A DNA stretch of 64,000 bases from Lactobacillus sp. Its GTDB lineage: Bacteria; Bacillota; Bacilli; Lactobacillales; Lactobacillaceae. Each line of letters opens with the position of its first letter. Positions within the stretch are counted from its first letter, which is position 1. Positions 6,782-30,086 of this stretch are shown here, one piece after another. The stretch lies in contig JALCQM010000012.1 in the NCBI GenBank assembly GCA_022651245.1, forward strand, positions 1 to 64,000, read 5' to 3'. A program made the position numbers and the translations under genes. Below the pieces are notes generated by a model, which saw only the letters and a program-made list of their open reading frames with translations, had not been told where the DNA came from and did not search any database.

Positions 6782-6913
6782 CTAGTGTACAATGTATGTC
6801 TTGATGCCAAAAAACCTGTCGAACCAGTTAGTGTAACGGTAATTTTTCTTTTTCTTACCGCCAATGACTTCACTTAGTTCAATATCGTTCATCTGATAGA
6901 ATTTCTTGTTCAT
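6782..6913 (-). CDS. Double-glycine leader peptide 1 (bacteriocin or pheromone precursor)
   Basis: 43 residues. The leader MNKKFYQMNDIELSEVIGG is a textbook double-glycine leader (hydrophobic residues at -4, -7, -12; cleavage after GG). The predicted mature 24-mer starts KKKKNYRYTNWFDRFFG and is cationic and amphipathic, like class II bacteriocins or induction peptides. ATG at 6913 has GGAGG 8 bases upstream. The frame is also open to 6979, where an ATG overlaps the rhomboid stop behind AGGGGG, so a longer 65-residue form is possible. It is last in the immunity-like/rhomboid operon. No intact exporter is present in the window, so export would need another locus. Confidence 0.8.
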   Translation of the reverse strand: MNKKFYQMNDIELSEVIGGKKKKNYRYTNWFDRFFGIKTYIVH

Positions 6914-6978
6914 AAATATTTCCTCCAGTATAGTGAGACTAACGTGACAACTGTAAAAGACGACAAAAATTCGCTTCA

Positions 6979-7644
6979 TCAATCACCCCCTAAATGGAAT
7001 CTGGTAAGAATAAACCCAGAAATTCCACCCATTATGTGAGCTAAATCCGATCCATCTAGTGGCATTGTCAGTCGAATAACTGGTGAAAAAATAGACCCTC
7101 CTAATGTCACCACCGCTAAAATGATGATTGCCTGTCGTAATCGATTCTTACGCAATTTTCCTAATTCGCGAAATACTGTCACTCCGGCCACTGATACCCC
7201 GGCAATGGCGGTTGAAGCACCTAAACCAACTGCCAAATATGAACTCGCGTCTATCCATCTCCAATTTCGGCCAATCTTCCAGATTAGGGCCAATACGCCG
7301 TCTGTCAATAAATTTCCAATGATTCCAGACACGATATAAATCACTAAGAATCTTAAATGCCCAATCGTGACTTCAATCGCCCAGCCGACGGCTAATAAAA
7401 GAAGCACATTTGTTACCAGCGCCATGATATCAAAGTTTTCTAGCCATAACGCCGTAAAAATACGAAATACGCTACCACGCATCACAAGGTCGGCTTCATT
7501 TCCCAACAAATCAGCCGAATATGTAGCAACGTGAATTGACCGATTGAGTAATAAAAATATTAAAATAAGGCCGGAAACAATTGTGATTGTTACCATTGGT
7601 ATATTCTGAATGCGCCTAGCCATGTAAGTATTCCTAATCTCCAT
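6979..7644 (-). CDS. Rhomboid-family intramembrane serine protease
   Basis: 221 residues with about six membrane helices. The rhomboid active site is visible: RIFTALWLEN after the first loop (61-70), catalytic Ser144 in GLGASTAIAG, and His203 in SDLAHIMGGISG. Rhomboids cleave membrane helices of other proteins. ATG at 7644 overlaps the stop of the upstream gene and the stop overlaps a start codon ahead of peptide 1, so it is embedded in a peptide/immunity operon. Position suggests a part in processing or protection in the pheromone system, for which rhomboids are not usual components; this is inference. An internal ATG at 7623 is a possible alternative start. Confidence 0.85.
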   Translation of the reverse strand: MEIRNTYMARRIQNIPMVTITIVSGLILIFLLLNRSIHVATYSADLLGNEADLVMRGSVFRIFTALWLENFDIMALVTNVLLLLAVGWAIEVTIGHLRFLVIYIVSGIIGNLLTDGVLALIWKIGRNWRWIDASSYLAVGLGASTAIAGVSVAGVTVFRELGKLRKNRLRQAIIILAVVTLGGSIFSPVIRLTMPLDGSDLAHIMGGISGFILTRFHLGGD

Positions 7645-7924
7645 CTACAAAACCACCTGTGTGTTTCACAACGTCAAGTTTTAGTGAGGTGTATCCAGAG
7701 TCCTGAAGGTCTCTAAATAATGCGAATAACGGTGCATTTAATTTCAAATTTACCGCTTCAAACAATAAAATCGAGCCAACGTTTGCAGCGACTATACCGA
7801 CTTTAAGTCCCCGATTCAACTCTGTTCTGGCGTACGCAAGCTTTTTTCGCACGTCTGTCGGCGTCTCAGGATCACTTATCAACGTCTTCAATCGCACTAC
7901 AAATTCGAAATCAGTAATTTTCAC
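7634..7924 (-). CDS. Putative bacteriocin immunity protein (four-helix type)
   Basis: 96 residues from a GTG at 7924, nine bases after GGAGG; a TTG at 7930 is the alternative but lies too close to the RBS. The protein is helical, charged and without membrane segments, with LKTLISDPETPTDVRKKLAY early and a hydrophobic central helix GLKVGIVAANVGSILLFEAV. Size and pattern resemble cytoplasmic pediocin-type immunity proteins, and it lies beside double-glycine peptides, but no diagnostic motif is present. It overlaps the rhomboid gene by 11 bases. Confidence 0.5.
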   Translation of the reverse strand: MKITDFEFVVRLKTLISDPETPTDVRKKLAYARTELNRGLKVGIVAANVGSILLFEAVNLKLNAPLFALFRDLQDSGYTSLKLDVVKHTGGFVDGD

Positions 7925-7948
7925 AAACAAGTCCCTCCCATAGTTTGC

Positions 7949-8138
7949 CTATGCGCGAGCAAAGATACGATCGTATAAAGCCTGCCAATAAGTCTTCCTC
8001 GCTGTGATGATCGATGCTTCACCTGTTATCCCATAATGCAATTGCGTCGTTACCGTGGTCGGTATATTGGCTCGTGCAACCACCTGAAAATAGTTAGTCT
8101 TTCCTATCTTGTTCCGTTAATTCAATAAACTTTTTCAT
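7949..8138 (-). pseudogene. Deletion scar: peptide-leader start joined to the C-terminus of an exporter accessory protein
   Basis: Read leftward, an ATG at 8138 behind AGGTGGGAAGG begins MKKFIELTEQDRKD and stops at 8094-8096. That is the first part of a typical double-glycine leader. In another frame, from about 8102 to the TAG at 7949-7951, the DNA encodes TNYFQVVARANIPTTV... HYGITGEASIITARKTYW, matching the last 45 or so residues of HlyD-type accessory proteins of bacteriocin ABC exporters (LcnD/PlnH type). The structural part of the bacteriocin gene, the ABC exporter and most of the accessory gene are missing, so one deletion probably removed them. Confidence 0.65.
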
Positions 8139-8213
8139 AATGCCTTCCCACCTAAAGTTAACAATAATTTCACAATTCATGTTATCATTGCTTAGCAGAA
8201 ATGGTTCAATCCG

Positions 8214-8244
8214 TAAATTAACGCGCAAAAACGATAAATTAACG
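8214..8244 (-). promoter_or_regulatory. Phased direct repeats: predicted LytTR regulator binding site
   Basis: TAAATTAACG occurs at 8214-8223 and again at 8235-8244, exactly 21 bases (two helical turns) apart. On the minus strand each reads CGTTAATTTA, close to the ACGTTAAT-type repeats bound by PlnC/PlnD-like regulators of plantaricin operons. They lie between the divergent kinase gene and the leader remnant and face leftward, so they would drive the exporter-remnant/immunity/rhomboid/peptide 1 transcript. A GATAAC at 8181-8186 is a possible -10. Confidence 0.6.
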
Positions 8245-8290
8245 TCGTATCGTCATTGCTTTTGTGGATGTCTGACAGTCGAGGTGTAAC

Positions 8291-9581
8291 ATGTACGATG
8301 TTTCCGTTCCAAATTACCTTGTTATTATTATGCCGATGCTCCTTTGTTTGTTCTCGCTTCAATCGATCGTACTCTATCATAAAATTTATGTGAGCTACAT
8401 CATCCCAATTAGTATTGTGGCAACGGCTTTCTCTCTATTTTTTACCAGCGCTGGAGAAATCATCTTTGGCATCATTTATGGTGCATTTCTATTCCGGCGG
8501 CAGAGATTCGGTCTATTATGGTTTATTATCTCATGGGAAGCATACCTGCTTTTGGCTAACACGATGGTCGTGATTCTACAATTCGCGATATTCTTGAAAC
8601 CAAATGATCAATCAATGCTGCTATGGGTCATTCCGATCCTCTGGAATGGTTTACTGATACTGGCTACCTCCATCGGATTGCGCCATTTTCGGCAAAAGCC
8701 TATTCGCCAATTCACCGAAGCAACTGATACAATGTTTCTCAAAGTTATCATCTTCTACAGCAGTATTATCTGTGCATTGTCATACCTTATTCAAATCGTC
8801 TTTGAACATACTGGTACGCCCAAAACCTACCAAGCAATTGCAACTGGGATATTCATGTTGCTAGCTGCGTTAAATCTAGGAACCATTATTTACTTACAAC
8901 GCGTCAGCCGCACGATATACGAAAATCGACTACTGAAAGCCTCGGAAACAGCGCGAGAGACCTACTATAAAGAATTAGATCAACAACAAAGGCAAACTCG
9001 TCGGATTCCTTCATGACTATAAGAATCTACTTGCCACCATTTCTGTTTCTGTTGATTCCAATGTAATCGATGAAAAAACAACCCAACTGATTGCCCAAGC
9101 ACGTTCAGGTTTAGAACACGCAGCAGCCAATCAGAATACACTAAACATGATTCAGTCCATCCCTTTGAGAAGCCTGCTTTACTTGAAATGGACGGAAGCA
9201 AACGAACACCAGATCAACCTAACCATCAATACCAATGGTGACATCGCCTTGCCACCAACTATCGACATGATGGGCCTGATTCGCTGCTTAGGTATTTTGT
9301 TGGATAATGCCTTATTTGCCACACAGGAAATTCATTATCAAAAATTTGACCTCTTAGTAATGCAAGATCGAGGTACAATTCAATTTACCGTCAGCAATGC
9401 TGTTGGTAACGAATTCAACCTTCGCGACCTGATCCAAGATGGATTCTCTACTAAAGGGAGTGGCCACGGAAATGGATTGATGAATCTGCGGCAAATTATT
9501 GCCCACAACCCGCAATTCAGCTTTACTCAGCTCGTAGAAGATCACCAACTTTCAATGAGCATCATCATTCAGGGGGAATAG
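8291..9581 (+). pseudogene. HPK10-type histidine kinase of a peptide quorum-sensing system, frameshifted
   Basis: The first frame (8291-9016) encodes about six membrane helices and a cytoplasmic helix ending RQTRRIPS-stop. From 9006 the next frame continues FLHDYKNLLATISV through to 9581, containing the H-box (His codon 9012-9014), an N-box LGILLDNALFA and a G-box GSGHGNGLMNL. One extra base at 9005 separates the two: without it the protein reads TRRFLHDYKN as expected for PlnB/AgrC-like sensors. The break lies just before the phosphorylated histidine, so the sensor should be inactive unless the reading frame is restored or it is a sequencing error. RBS GAGGTG precedes 8291; the regulator follows by one base. 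Confidence 0.82.
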
Positions 9582-9582
9582 C

Positions 9583-10344
9583 ATGTTAGACCTTTATATT
9601 TTGGAAGATCAACCTGAACAGTTAGCGAATATTAAACATGAACTTGCCACTGCAATCATGATTGAAGACTATTCAGCCCAGATTCGAATGGCGACAGCTA
9701 ATCCAAATGAAATTACGCAAGCACTCGCAATCAATGGTTATGCCGATAGTTTATTTTTCTTAGACATCGAAATCGATAGCGCAGTTGGGAATGGCATTGA
9801 CCTTGCACAATCAATTCGTCAGCATACGCACACAGCAGACATCATCTTCATCACGAGTCATCCAGATGCAGCGTTAAAAATCGTTAATCATCAAATTACG
9901 CCTTTAGACCTGATTTCTAAAGGGAGTGCACCAAGCACCTTCCGGCAACAACTTCGCAATGATCTTGCCGAGTGTATCGATCGCGCCAATGATCGTAAAC
10001 TACATTCGCCGCAACTGCTCAGCTACATGATTGGAACAGATATTCGAACCGTCGACTTGACTAATGTTTTTAGTATTCAAACTGTTCCCGGTGATCCTGG
10101 TATGCTGTTGCTACAAGCCGATAAGGTTGACGCAAGCTTTCGTGGTAATCTCACGGACTTTGAACGCGAATACCCTTCGCTGTTTCGATGTCATAAAAGT
10201 GCACTGATCAATCCATCCCAAGTCACCGATTTCGATGTCAAGAAGCGGCTCCTTACATTACACAACGGCACCCAAGTACAAGTCAGCATTCGAAAAATTG
10301 CACAATTAAAACGATTACTCCTAAGAAAAACAGCAGACAAATAA
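9583..10344 (+). CDS. LytTR-type response regulator (PlnC/AgrA-like)
   Basis: 253 residues. N-terminal receiver with acidic pair Glu8/Asp9 and phospho-acceptor Asp61 in FFLDIEID; a Lys in SKGSAPS matches the receiver lysine region. The C-terminal LytTR DNA-binding domain (about 145-245) has the family's FRCHKSALINPSQV segment. It lies one base after the broken kinase frame, so the pair was translationally coupled. It should bind paired repeats such as those at 8214-8244 and activate peptide operons. Being intact while its kinase is broken, it may be phosphorylated by another kinase or be idle. Confidence 0.9.
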   Translation: MLDLYILEDQPEQLANIKHELATAIMIEDYSAQIRMATANPNEITQALAINGYADSLFFLDIEIDSAVGNGIDLAQSIRQHTHTADIIFITSHPDAALKIVNHQITPLDLISKGSAPSTFRQQLRNDLAECIDRANDRKLHSPQLLSYMIGTDIRTVDLTNVFSIQTVPGDPGMLLLQADKVDASFRGNLTDFEREYPSLFRCHKSALINPSQVTDFDVKKRLLTLHNGTQVQVSIRKIAQLKRLLLRKTADK

Positions 10345-10348
10345 CGTA

Positions 10349-10492
10349 GCTGAGACATAACTCTAGATTTCGGCACAGTTGCGTTCCATAAAGCAACGCC
10401 CAGGCATACAAATGCCCCTGTACCGCGGTTTAAAACCAAACCGTGGTACAGGAGCACTTGTATTTTGGGCTAAAACCGCTTTATGTCTCAGC
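10349..10492. repeat. Dispersed hairpin repeat, copy A (MITE/REP-like)
   Basis: A 144-bp element bounded by a perfect 12-bp inverted repeat GCTGAGACATAA / TTATGTCTCAGC. Inside is a long second stem, GCCCCTGTACCGCGGTTT pairing with AAACCGTGGTACAGGAGC. A closely related 133-bp copy lies at 62977-63109. Here it begins five bases after the regulator stop and lies between converging genes, so it can act as a transcription terminator. It encodes no protein. Confidence 0.85.
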
Positions 10493-10522
10493 CTCATAAA
10501 TTCATGAATTTCGCCAATCAGA

Positions 10523-11242
10523 TCATGCTAGCATCAGAAAGAAGGCGACGCTGTTGACCAGAACGTGAGCTAAACAGACAGGAATCAGATTATGGTTGCT
10601 CCATTCAAACGCGATGGCAAATAGCAAGACGTCTCCATAACTGATAAAAATCAAAAGTAGGATATCTGGTCTCATATTAATTTCTGATCCATGGTACAGA
10701 ATGAACAAAATAGTCGTACAGGCCACACTACCAATCCGTTGAAGGCTTTTCGAAAATTTTGAAAACACTGTTGGAAACAGAATTCCCTGAAAATAATACT
10801 GGAAAATCAGCTCTTCCGTGACCGGCAGAACCATCACACCAGTCACTACCAACATCGTCAATAATACTGGTGAATTTCTCAGCGTTGCAACTAAGCCCAT
10901 CGTTGTATTCTGATTGGCTGGCAACGGTAATTTCAGTAGACTGATGACCACATCGTATAGCAGACTACCACAGGCCACCAATATTCCCATGCCCCAAGTT
11001 TGTAGCTTTCCAAGGCTTTGGCGCCACTTGTGCCAATATGTCCTCGTAATCATCAGTAAAACGATCAGATAGAGCCAAATAATTCCAAGCTGAAGCGGTA
11101 CTAAAATGATCCGTCGCAAAGAAAAACCGACCTTAACCAATTGCATCAGCTTAGGAAGCACGAAAGTAATCACGCCTTCCATAAATACAAATATGATCAA
11201 TCCATATTTAAGTTGGCTCATTTTATCTAATCTATCAAACAT
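10523..11242 (-). CDS. CPBP (CAAX/Abi) family membrane protein
   Basis: About 239 residues with some seven membrane helices. The CPBP signatures are PVTEELIFQYYFQGIL, LFILYHGS and LAHVLVNSVAF; the usual arginine of EExxxR is Gln here, so proteolytic activity is uncertain. In bacteriocin loci such proteins (PlnI-like) give self-immunity, and this one lies downstream of peptide 2 on the same strand. The start is unsure: ATG 11242 follows GAGGAA closely, while a TTG at 11284 follows AAGGAAG too closely. Confidence 0.78.
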   Translation of the reverse strand: MFDRLDKMSQLKYGLIIFVFMEGVITFVLPKLMQLVKVGFSLRRIILVPLQLGIIWLYLIVLLMITRTYWHKWRQSLGKLQTWGMGILVACGSLLYDVVISLLKLPLPANQNTTMGLVATLRNSPVLLTMLVVTGVMVLPVTEELIFQYYFQGILFPTVFSKFSKSLQRIGSVACTTILFILYHGSEINMRPDILLLIFISYGDVLLFAIAFEWSNHNLIPVCLAHVLVNSVAFFLMLA

Positions 11243-11313
11243 TTCCTCATCGACTGCTTGTTGTGCGCGACACCAAACAATCAAACTTCCTTTCTGGTTT
11301 ATTCAGTAGATAC

Positions 11314-11355
11314 GAAATGGGACGGTACAGTGTCAATGCTGCGCCGTCCCATTTC
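11314..11355. terminator. Inverted repeat after peptide 2 (weak terminator or mRNA-processing hairpin)
   Basis: Perfect 12-bp stem GAAATGGGACGG / CCGTCCCATTTC with an 18-base loop, 11 bases beyond the peptide 2 stop. There is no T-run, so partial read-through into the CPBP gene is likely, giving high peptide and lower immunity expression. Confidence 0.6.
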
Positions 11356-11366
11356 ATATCATGTCA

Positions 11367-11489
11367 TTACAGAACAATCACAAACTTGCAATTGGTAAAA
11401 ATATTGAACGTAAAGCTACGCCCTTTTTTCTTTTTGCCCCCGACGATTTGCGATAAGTCCTGCGCGGATAACACTGCATAATTGTTCAT
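11367..11489 (-). CDS. Double-glycine leader peptide 2 (bacteriocin or pheromone precursor)
   Basis: 40 residues, shorter than common ORF cutoffs. The leader MNNYAVLSAQDLSQIVGG is a classical double-glycine leader. The predicted mature 22-mer begins KKKKGRSFTFNIFTNC, has a single cysteine and a hydrophobic end, and shares the four-lysine start with peptide 1. GGAGG lies 7 bases before the ATG at 11489; an in-frame ATG directly upstream (11492) is possible. It precedes the CPBP gene. It may be the induction peptide for the kinase/regulator pair or a small bacteriocin; neither activity is demonstrated. Confidence 0.8.
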   Translation of the reverse strand: MNNYAVLSAQDLSQIVGGKKKKGRSFTFNIFTNCKFVIVL

Positions 11490-11884
11490 CATGATTCCTC
11501 CATTTTTGATTAACCTAGTTTTGCGATAAGCCACATTGCGATCTAAATGCCACCAGTGAGTGCAGTTTGTGCAAGATCACAACACGATTTATTACAGGCC
11601 CTATCCTACCAAAGCTAAAAACGGATGAATGAAAAAAATATTACCGTTTGAAATCATTAAATCAACGTTGTCCATTTGAGACGTGTTACCCAGTTACCAT
11701 GGTAAAAATCGTCGGCCAGCTACGATTAGGCGCAAGGAATGACACACTTGCCTCTCTGCTGTCATAACCACGGCATACCGCATTGCCGATTGAAAAACTG
11801 CACCCAATCAGAAGTAGCCTTCCTGAAGTGAGCAATACACAATTGGCTTTCAGCAAGCAGACACATTGAAATCAAATTCAAAAT
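11490..11884. other. Intergenic stretch, right edge of the peptide locus
   Basis: About 395 AT-rich bases upstream of peptide 2. I found no coding frame with an RBS. It should hold the peptide 2 promoter (leftward), but I see no convincing pair of 21-bp-phased regulator repeats, only isolated ATTAAC/TTAACC-like words near 11510 and 11655. Confidence 0.45.
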
Positions 11885-28547: not shown

Positions 28548-30086
28548 TTATCTGGTAGCCTCTTCTTGAAGCTCACTCCAAACAGGCTCCATTCCATTTA
28601 CAATACGTTTATAATTCTCATACTTCCGTTGATAGATTGCCGCAGTTTCTCTTTGCGGGTCAATTACGCGGCTAATGTGTACCATATGCTTTGCCGCATC
28701 TTCGACACTATCAAAATCACCTGTCATTACACCCGCTGTCATTGCCGTTCCCAATGTGCCATTTTCCTTAACGTTGACCAACTCAAGCGGACGTTGCAAA
28801 ACATTTGCGAAAATCTGTAACCAGACAGTTGAATTTGTAATACCACCAGCAATACGCGCCGCACCGTCAAGATGGCCATCAATATGACGTAATTTCTCAA
28901 TGTGATACATATGAGAAAATACAACACCCTCATATACGGCTCGAACAAAGTACTTCAAATCATGAAACTTAGTTGCCCCAACAAAACCTGCGCTAGCATT
29001 AGGTACCGCATTCCCACCGAAAATAAATGGGAAAAATAATAGATCACTATCTTCTGGCTTTGTGCTAGCAACTAGCTTGTTGCAATAATCATAAATTGAA
29101 AAACCTGCATCCTCAGCCGCACGCTTCTCCTTTTGCATAAACGTGGAGATAAACCATTCGAGGTTGCTGGCAGAGGTCGGACTTGCTTCGGTAATAAGCC
29201 AACGATTAGCAATCGGGTAAATAGATGTCATGAACAGATCTTTAACAACTTTCGGCCGATCAGTAATATACTCATTAATTGACCAAGTCCCCGTCACAAT
29301 TCCCAGTTTATCTCGATGAACGAGGCCGGTAGATAACACAGAAGCTGCAATATCAAACACCCCTCCAGAACACGGCGTCCCCTCAGCTAGTCCAGTTAAC
29401 TCTGCTATCTGCTTCGTTACCCGACCACATTGGTCTATTGAATTGGCCAAAGGAGGTAACTTATCAAGCCACTTCTCAATGCCGAAAAATTTCAAGAGCT
29501 CGGGATCAAATTTCTTGCTCGTTAGATTAAGCATACTTGTGCCTGATGCATTAGTGATTTCAAAGTGGGGATCCCCTGTTAGCCAGTATCGAATTAGATC
29601 GGGAATCATAAAGATATACTTTGTCCGATCAAATACTTCAGGCTCATGATCTTGCAACCACGCCAATAACGCGACCGGTTGGGAAGACCAAACTGTCTGC
29701 ATTGTTTTGGGTCGAATATCGACTTCATACTTCGGATCAGCAAGCCAACGCTTCACGTAACTTGCTGCACGGTCATCAGTAGAAATAATGCCATTGCGAG
29801 TTGCTTTGCCATCTTCTCCAACTAAATACAAGCCATTGCCATGGCCTGTACAAGCAATCCCGACAATATCATGTGGATCAATATGTGCATCAGCAATTGT
29901 TTGCTTGATCACATAAACATTAGCCTTCCACAACTCATCCATATCTCGTTCGGTGAAAAAAGGATGAGGCGTCAACATCTTGGTATTGATTGTTGTCTTT
30001 TTCAGTTCACGCCCATTCATGTCATAAATAGCTGCTTTAGTACTAGTACCGCCATTGTCGATACCCATTAAATATCTGTTAATCAT
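28548..30086 (-). CDS. FGGY carbohydrate kinase, L-xylulokinase (LyxK)-like
   Basis: 512 residues. ATP-dependent phosphorylation of a ketopentose or related sugar. The sequence follows the LyxK pattern: MGIDNGGTSTKAAIYDMNG (phosphate 1 loop), PFFTERDMDELWK, STDDRAASYVKRW, ITEASPTSASNLEWF and AIYEGVVFSH-type VYEGVVFSHMYHIEKLR. Start ATG 30086 follows AAAGGGG; the longer frame overlaps the previous gene without RBS. It is the probable entry step of the operon because the EIIC has no phosphorylating partners. Exact sugar unknown. Confidence 0.85.
   Translation of the reverse strand: MINRYLMGIDNGGTSTKAAIYDMNGRELKKTTINTKMLTPHPFFTERDMDELWKANVYVIKQTIADAHIDPHDIVGIACTGHGNGLYLVGEDGKATRNGIISTDDRAASYVKRWLADPKYEVDIRPKTMQTVWSSQPVALLAWLQDHEPEVFDRTKYIFMIPDLIRYWLTGDPHFEITNASGTSMLNLTSKKFDPELLKFFGIEKWLDKLPPLANSIDQCGRVTKQIAELTGLAEGTPCSGGVFDIAASVLSTGLVHRDKLGIVTGTWSINEYITDRPKVVKDLFMTSIYPIANRWLITEASPTSASNLEWFISTFMQKEKRAAEDAGFSIYDYCNKLVASTKPEDSDLLFFPFIFGGNAVPNASAGFVGATKFHDLKYFVRAVYEGVVFSHMYHIEKLRHIDGHLDGAARIAGGITNSTVWLQIFANVLQRPLELVNVKENGTLGTAMTAGVMTGDFDSVEDAAKHMVHISRVIDPQRETAAIYQRKYENYKRIVNGMEPVWSELQEEATR

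Follow-up and report, generated by a model that had tools for sequence, protein, structure and literature searches.

The first 64,000 nucleotides of contig JALCQM010000012.1 (Lactobacillus sp., GenBank assembly GCA_022651245.1), here called the window, carry two short genes, A and B, that encode double-glycine (GG) peptides and lie on either side of a histidine kinase/response regulator pair. Peptide A (6782 to 6913, minus strand) is a 43-residue precursor consisting of a 19-residue GG leader, MNKKFYQMNDIELSEVIGG, and a 24-residue mature part, KKKKNYRYTNWFDRFFGIKTYIVH, with a calculated monoisotopic mass of 3151.69, a net charge of +5.8, and no cysteine. Peptide B (11367 to 11492, minus strand) has 40 or 41 residues, depending on whether the open reading frame (ORF) is taken from 11489 or from an extra ATG one codon upstream, at 11492; its 18- or 19-residue leader, MNNYAVLSAQDLSQIVGG, is followed by a 22-residue mature part, KKKKGRSFTFNIFTNCKFVIVL, with a calculated mass of 2617.49, a net charge of +5.7, and a single cysteine at position 16. 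The first-pass annotation, made from the sequence alone, had described both as GG ORFs with strong ribosome-binding sites and mature parts that start with KKKK and are otherwise unrelated. The coordinates proved exact, both genes are on the minus strand with a GGAGG ribosome-binding site ahead of them, and with the KKKK removed the mature parts had no similarity (shuffle P = 0.54), so that A and B were rejected as paralogues. A strict scan for an ATG with AGGAG or GGAGG upstream, a spaced hydrophobic leader ending in GG, and a mature part of at least 15 residues matched only these two genes in the 64 kb. The same scan gave one match in total on 40 third-order Markov shuffles of the window, or 0.025 per 64 kb, so the GG leaders are far above chance.

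The genes between A and B follow a layout that is found intact in related loci. In two of these (L032 and L036), genes for an HlyD protein, an ATP-binding cassette (ABC) exporter, and a GG peptide lie in this order on one strand, with the kinase and regulator on the opposite strand; the listed genes of two others (L030 and L035) agree with this order, with the exporter genes interrupted. The exporters of all four were identified by reading. From its position, we infer that the GG peptide in this divergent slot is the pheromone. The window keeps the canonical geometry, and the interval between the kinase and a gene for a 98-residue protein (7634 to 7930, minus strand) holds just two fragments. 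The first, at 8094 to 8138 (minus strand), has a ribosome-binding site and a start codon, reads MKKFIELTEQDRKD, and meets a stop after 14 codons; its position, strand, and promoter match those of the slot gene in the related loci, and it is probably the leader remnant of the original pheromone gene. The second, at 7949 to 8095 (minus strand), is made up of the last 48 codons of an HlyD/ComB-type exporter accessory protein; read against the intact HlyD proteins of L031, L032, and L036, it aligns with their C-termini. A deletion apparently fused the leader remnant to the HlyD end and seems to have taken out the core of the pheromone along with the exporter and the greater part of HlyD.

On the plus strand, the HPK10-type histidine kinase (8291 to 9581) is also broken. 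Its membrane part occupies 8291 to 9016, and the next frame then carries the H-box FLHDYKN and the GHKL part to 9581 (Pfam E value 4e-10), so that the frameshift precedes the H-box. The LytTR-family response regulator that follows (9583 to 10344, plus strand) is intact (Pfam LytTR 4e-13, Response_reg 4e-7) and shares 38 to 43% identity with eight regulators of related loci. Pfam thus matched all four neighbors named in the first-pass annotation (rhomboid, CPBP, LytTR regulator, and kinase), the kinase as its GHKL half. A Peptidase_C39 search of the genome's own assembly (90.25% complete, 73 contigs) gave no match, with 8 of 14 control genomes positive, and the annotation's statement that no exporter remains therefore holds for an assembly that is 90% complete. 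The decayed quorum-sensing locus it had proposed is supported, and the decay is more specific than it had claimed, comprising the kinase frameshift near 9000 and the remnants at 7949 to 8138.

The plantaricin regulators PlnC and PlnD bind two 9-bp repeats of consensus TACGTTAAT separated by a 12-bp spacer (PMC2714321). We found two predicted sites of this type at the locus, both on the minus strand: GACGTTAAT-N12-CGCGTTAAT at 8217 to 8246, matching the consensus at 8/9 and 7/9 positions, and AACGTTGAT-N12-AACGGTAAT at 11640 to 11669, upstream of B, matching at 7/9 and 7/9. When both strands of the 64 kb were scanned for ACGTTAAT 8-mer pairs at a spacing of 20 to 22, the two best sites were those at 8245, ahead of the pheromone remnant (15/16), and at 11668, ahead of B (14/16), each with a spacing of 21; dinucleotide Markov controls gave 0.01 score-14 sites at this spacing per 5.2 kb. 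A clear pair precedes the slot gene in all four related loci, at 107 (L030), 105 (L032), 104 (L035), and 120 (L036) nucleotides from its start, and the distance in the window is 108. Peptide A itself has no box directly upstream. The scanner listed no terminator inside the minus-strand series of the 98-residue protein gene, the rhomboid gene, and A, and a stable hairpin with a terminal T7 run follows A (about 6640 to 6585), so that these genes would be transcribed together from what was once the pheromone promoter. Counts from sigma-70 and terminator scans across the locus did not exceed those of shuffles.

Downstream of B lies a gene for a CPBP/Rce1-like membrane protein (10523 to 11242, minus strand; Pfam PF02517, E value 3e-9). 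It retains EELIFQ (of the EExxxR type, with Arg replaced by Gln), FxxxH, and HxxxN, and thus has the Rce1-like domain with conserved motifs that marks CPBP (Abi) immunity proteins. A search with B over 397 Lactobacillaceae genomes found four other genomes at an E value of 0.1 or less, with A itself recovered at 0.098. The best match (E value 0.0012) is in a genome of another genus, G129, where a leader ending in LITDELVSIAGG is followed by the mature part KSKKRGGIHITIFNHCKFYFVF. Both mature parts have 22 residues, of which 9 are identical without gaps (shuffle P = 2e-4, or 0.0035 when the first four residues are left out). The same strand has an open CPBP frame about 0.25 kb downstream, and its product shares 31% identity over 127 residues with the CPBP protein of the window (E value 2e-12). 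Across 397 genomes, the peptide match is not significant by itself, but the CPBP gene beside it makes it credible. No convincing repeat boxes were found near this homologue, and the B matches in the other three genomes had no leader ORF. For CPBP proteins, arguments have been made for a role in immunity as well as for one in signal processing (PMC9298176), and the arrangement of the genes suggests that the CPBP protein of the window is likely the putative immunity protein of B.

Taken together, the segment is most plausibly what is left of a three-component bacteriocin locus of the plantaricin type, in which A and B are precursors of short cationic class II bacteriocins, a reading to which we give a probability of roughly 0.63. 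The original locus would have consisted of a pheromone, an HPK10 kinase, a LytTR regulator, and a C39 ABC exporter with HlyD, and A and B would have been among its products, cut after GG by the exporter. The mature peptides are probably antibacterial, judging from their features: the lysine-rich start would draw them to the envelope with its negative charge, leaving the hydrophobic/aromatic C-terminal part to contact the membrane or a receptor, as has been proposed for bactofencin A. B would have been encoded upstream of its likely immunity protein, and A would have come last in a series now headed by the old pheromone promoter, after a 98-residue immunity-like protein and the rhomboid. The regulator would activate both this promoter and that of B through the 21-bp-spaced TACGTTAAT-like repeats. 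A later deletion would then have cost the locus its entire ABC transporter, the core of the pheromone, and most of HlyD, and the kinase carries a frameshift. Because of the deletion and the frameshift, secretion and induction should be dead, although the genes of the peptide and immunity types are still open.

The same pattern of loss would fit an immunity-only relic, which is compatible with the bacteriocin reading and which we regard as quite possible, if short of even odds. In this case, selection would keep the 98-residue protein, the CPBP protein, and perhaps the rhomboid against the bacteriocins of relatives, with A and B as intact passengers. The immunity-type genes and the regulator are indeed open where the signal, the exporter, and the kinase are broken, and kinase/regulator loci in which boxes precede immunity-like genes, with no GG leader recognized close by, occur in two related species. 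These are Lacticaseibacillus porcinae (L028, 8130 to 11128, boxes at 8575 and 10681) and L. manihotivorans (L029, 8377 to 12279, boxes at 8269, 9707, and 11820); a regular-expression scan found no true GG leader in either, and their ORF lists held no exporter, so that they are possible eavesdropping, immunity-only loci. However, the kinase frameshift makes regulated expression of immunity doubtful too, and the ORFs and ribosome-binding sites of A and B and the box of B are all intact.

The tetralysine start, called unusual in the first-pass annotation, turned out to be rare but not unique. A GGKKKK DNA pattern occurred at 21 sites in 20 of the 397 genomes, against 10 for the reversed control pattern, and reading left five GG-leader ORFs among the 21, namely A, B, and one each in G232, G124, and G139. 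All three outside the window lie beside a peptide exporter (two with C39 by Pfam; an ABC transporter with HlyD by reading in L191), two have CPBP genes within about 1.5 kb, and one is adjoined by an EntA_Immun-like protein (19.8 bits, under the cut-off of 22.1). Comparing A and B with these three peptides and with a KSKKK peptide of G129 gave nothing significant (lowest P value, 0.058). The KSKKK peptide is a second, weaker match of B in G129 and belongs to a locus with an exporter. This bacteriocin locus (L187, 9482 to 15656) has a C39 exporter by Pfam and HlyD, a regulator, and a kinase by reading, together with several GG peptides, also by reading, whose mature parts start with KSKKK, KRKS, and KSRF; basic starts may be commoner than the KKKK pattern shows. 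Among plasmids, the only match of B (E value 0.8) was on L. plantarum pL1277-4, beside a C39 exporter. It was ruled out as an ortholog of B, being a relative of bactofencin A (NF038163, E value 1.2e-22) with a KRKK start that was matched through its leader and basic start. This bactofencin A-family gene (L188, 3502 to 3645; NZ_CP017367.1) has no feature in the PLSDB gene table, which is incomplete, and the adjoining C39 exporter gene is cut by an IS3-family element. A single plasmid match of A (E value 7), in an RHS gene, was rejected as chance.

Set against known families, A and B both have the GG leader and ribosome-binding site of class II bacteriocins, and no dedicated C39 ABC exporter was found in the locus or in the 90%-complete assembly, the HlyD remnant being all that is left at the locus. 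Both gave sub-threshold matches to the bactofencin A family NF038163 (A, 18.8 bits, E value 0.0015; B, 16.4 bits, E value 0.008; cut-off, 35) and to the LSEI_2386 family NF046113, named bacteriocin-like by NCBI (A, 15.1 bits, E value 0.018; B, 22.6 bits, E value 8e-5; cut-off, 40), as well as weak matches to Bacteriocin_IIc (E values 0.076 and 0.052, respectively); these matches arise mostly through the leader. Bactofencin A, of class IId, has 22 residues and a KRKK start, and its stepwise truncation from the N terminus lowers activity; the start is described as unique among known class II sequences (PMC6081437). A and B share with it the GG leader, a mature part of about 22 residues, and the basic N-terminal block, but its Cys7-Cys22 pair has no counterpart in A (no cysteine) or B (one), the NF038163 model covers only their leader and basic block, and their neighbors are CPBP or immunity-like proteins. 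On these features, A and B have the architecture of bactofencin A, yet are not members of its family.

The locus itself resembles two types of regulated bacteriocin loci. Plantaricin (pln) three-component loci have an HPK10 kinase and GG peptides, which are also seen in the window. Unlike these, the window has a destroyed pheromone gene, exporter, and kinase, a single regulator, and a rhomboid gene adjoining a peptide gene. A LytTR regulator and two 9-bp repeats near the consensus with a 12-bp spacer are common to both (PMC2714321), and an intact HPK10 kinase and an intact divergent pheromone gene are absent from the window. The LSEI_2386-type loci of Lacticaseibacillus (e.g., L. zeae and L. 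chiayiensis) are alike in the order of peptide, kinase, and regulator, the divergent exporter/HlyD genes, and the box position, but differ in that the window's regulator is only 38 to 43% identical, A and B fall below the family cut-off, and the exporter is deleted.

Several observations weigh against the bacteriocin reading. A and B are under the cut-off in every matched family that has one, and A with a conserved mature part was found in none of the 29 other genomes of the genus. The E values of the B search are per genome, so that about half a chance match is expected over the 397 genomes at 0.0012; moreover, the G129 copy of B lacks a usual start codon, and the first part of its CPBP gene is broken, which makes this copy a relic as well. 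The 98-residue protein matched neither EntA_Immun nor any other immunity family in Pfam, and the role of a CPBP-like partner is hypothetical only for the rhomboid at A. A third 9-mer site at 28604 (15/18) lies within coding sequence and was taken as chance, and the 9-mer background is thus about one per window. Nine other GG genes in the four related loci have no such pair upstream, only the slot genes do, and the box of B therefore looks more pheromone-like. Finally, when the mature parts were compared with five slot GG peptides (four of this genus and a longer one from Latilactobacillus fuchuensis) against self-shuffles, NWFDRFFG of A aligned with NWLTSIFG, RWFDGLFK, and NWIGELF (best P value, 0.028; sum P value, 0.014).

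The last two points would be accounted for if A, B, or both were paralogues of the pheromone and served as additional induction peptides sensed by the kinase. The mature lengths of 24 and 22 residues equal those of putative Lacticaseibacillus pheromones (21, 22, 24, and 24), FTFNIFTN of B aligned with FTFNKFKN of one of them (best P value, 0.009; sum P value, 0.087), and both peptides have the NF046113 matches. Nevertheless, these matches are mostly leader, the alignment P values are uncorrected, the peptides are short and rich in aromatic residues, and the four putative pheromones lack a basic tetrapeptide start. Boxes are also found before GG genes outside the slot in G232 (L189), where pairs lie 112, 96, and 254 nucleotides before GG genes, the first and third of them outside the slot by reading, and a KKKK peptide gene is among those boxed outside it. 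The first-pass annotation had proposed that one peptide was the pheromone and the other a bacteriocin, or that both were pheromones of a diverging pair. Its decayed locus and GG peptides stand, but the slot is occupied by a third, different gene, the truncated one at 8094 to 8138. Since its homologue in another genus is likewise upstream of a CPBP gene, B fits better as a bacteriocin with an immunity gene, and we consider pheromone paralogues rather unlikely.

The 98-residue protein is a candidate EntA-type immunity protein, a possible assignment for which the evidence is weak. It is 30% identical to a 103-residue protein of G015 (E value 1e-6), and an hhalign comparison with six immunity-like proteins of related loci gave an E value of 0.0017 with a probability of only 15.7. 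Its single-sequence model has four helices at a predicted local distance difference test score of 64.5, with no PDB match at an E value of 0.001 or less.

The rhomboid-family protein (6979 to 7644, minus strand; Pfam PF01694, E value 1e-14) retains the catalytic dyad Ser144 (GAST) and His203 (DLAH) and is only distantly related to the other rhomboids of the genus (best, 34% identity, E value 1.4e-12). Its closest relatives among the 397 genomes are two in G181, at L174 (E value 9e-28) and L175 (1e-19), and rhomboids at an E value of 1e-8 or less occur in two of the eight genomes of that genus. L174 has two tandem rhomboids (Pfam 5e-19 and 2e-10) beside an HlyD fragment (Pfam 9e-8), a GG peptide, and a kinase and LytTR-like regulator identified by reading, with no direct repeats at the box spacing before the rhomboids. 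Of the four places where wider flanks were taken (L174, L175, L176, and L177), only L174 read as a kinase/regulator locus, its tandem pair having come to light only with these flanks, and the 20 kb read at L175 contained neither a kinase nor a regulator. In Lapidilactobacillus wuchangensis (L070), a kinase/regulator pair (regulator, 40% identical) is divergent from two CPBP genes (Pfam 7e-18 and 6e-17), and a box lies 91 nucleotides ahead of the first ORF. The rhomboids at L174, the CPBP genes at L070, and one of each in the window would fit rhomboid and CPBP proteins, which are unrelated intramembrane protease families, as interchangeable partners of GG peptides acting on the peptide, a receptor, or self-immunity; this is weakened by L175, and we consider it improbable. 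A general link between rhomboids and GG peptides was rejected, since a scan, with 1.5-kb flanks, of the 45 rhomboid loci returned by the searches, the window's own and 44 others, gave a true GG leader only at the window's own, the one regular-expression match at L079 reading as a membrane protein.

A literature search found no paper naming both "rhomboid protease" and "bacteriocin immunity," and a wider one led to the caseicin paper (PMC12634818, section 18), in which rhomboid genes in bacteriocin operons of the same genus are already in print; that section gives them no function. The caseicin (Cas1/Cas2) operons of L. zeae/L. casei likewise combine an immunity protein with a rhomboid protease, but they encode a class IIa YGNGV bacteriocin with a 46-residue core and have no regulator genes. 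SilX of the Sil locus is, like the window's protein, a CPBP-type (CAAX) protease in a quorum-sensing bacteriocin locus, but it is tied to a signal peptide rather than to immunity, whereas the CPBP gene of the window follows a peptide gene with its own box (PMC9298176).

It is very improbable that the kinase frameshift is a sequencing error in a system that can still be induced and exports through a transporter missing from the assembly: the assembly is incomplete, and the kinase frames on both sides of the one-step shift are otherwise open, but the fusion of the leader to the HlyD end is unexplained by a base-calling error and C39 was not found.

The genome, of 2.77 Mb, shares its genus with L. 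porcinae, L. manihotivorans, L. chiayiensis, and L. zeae. In G018, about 0.5 kb separates mutY (by reading) from a conserved small ORF before sbcC; in the window, they are about 7.2 kb apart, with the peptide locus and a GATase-like gene in between. G002, the closest relative as judged by SbcC (83%), has its GATase homologue and sbcC at the ends of two contigs and no regulator match at an E value of 0.001 or less. At the site of the window's peptide locus, its contig C15 begins with what reads as an IS30-type transposase end (L131, 1 to 80). With the spacing that differs, the contig end in G002, and the missing regulator match there, the site seems to be a variable one and the peptide locus an island in it. 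Elsewhere in the window's own genome (L039, contig C37 of G000, 7534 to 10309), a second, open pair of a kinase and a LytTR-like regulator lies behind two small membrane-protein genes, one of which resembles by eye a 63-residue protein of the L. zeae bacteriocin locus; no match reading as a GG leader was found in the 20 kb scanned.

Most readers will see an ordinary relic here, and the locus is for the most part of an ordinary, decayed kind; the two short peptide genes that it carries are new, papers on A and B themselves not having been searched for. The two tetralysine GG peptides nonetheless add to the few bacteriocin-like peptides that have a basic block at the N terminus, and for one of them, B, there is a distant homologue whose gene also lies upstream of a CPBP gene. 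The locus also suggests a route of decay for pheromone-regulated bacteriocin loci, in which one deletion takes the signal and the exporter and the immunity-type genes stay open, and its pairing of rhomboid and CPBP suggests a testable role of intramembrane proteases in such regulons.

Two further hairpins are present at the locus. A stable one without a T run (11285 to 11365, -35 kcal/mol) lies between B and the CPBP gene, where it may cause partial termination or RNA processing, and a very long one (10350 to 10505, calculated at -72 kcal/mol) between the regulator and CPBP genes resembles a bidirectional terminator or a small repeat element.

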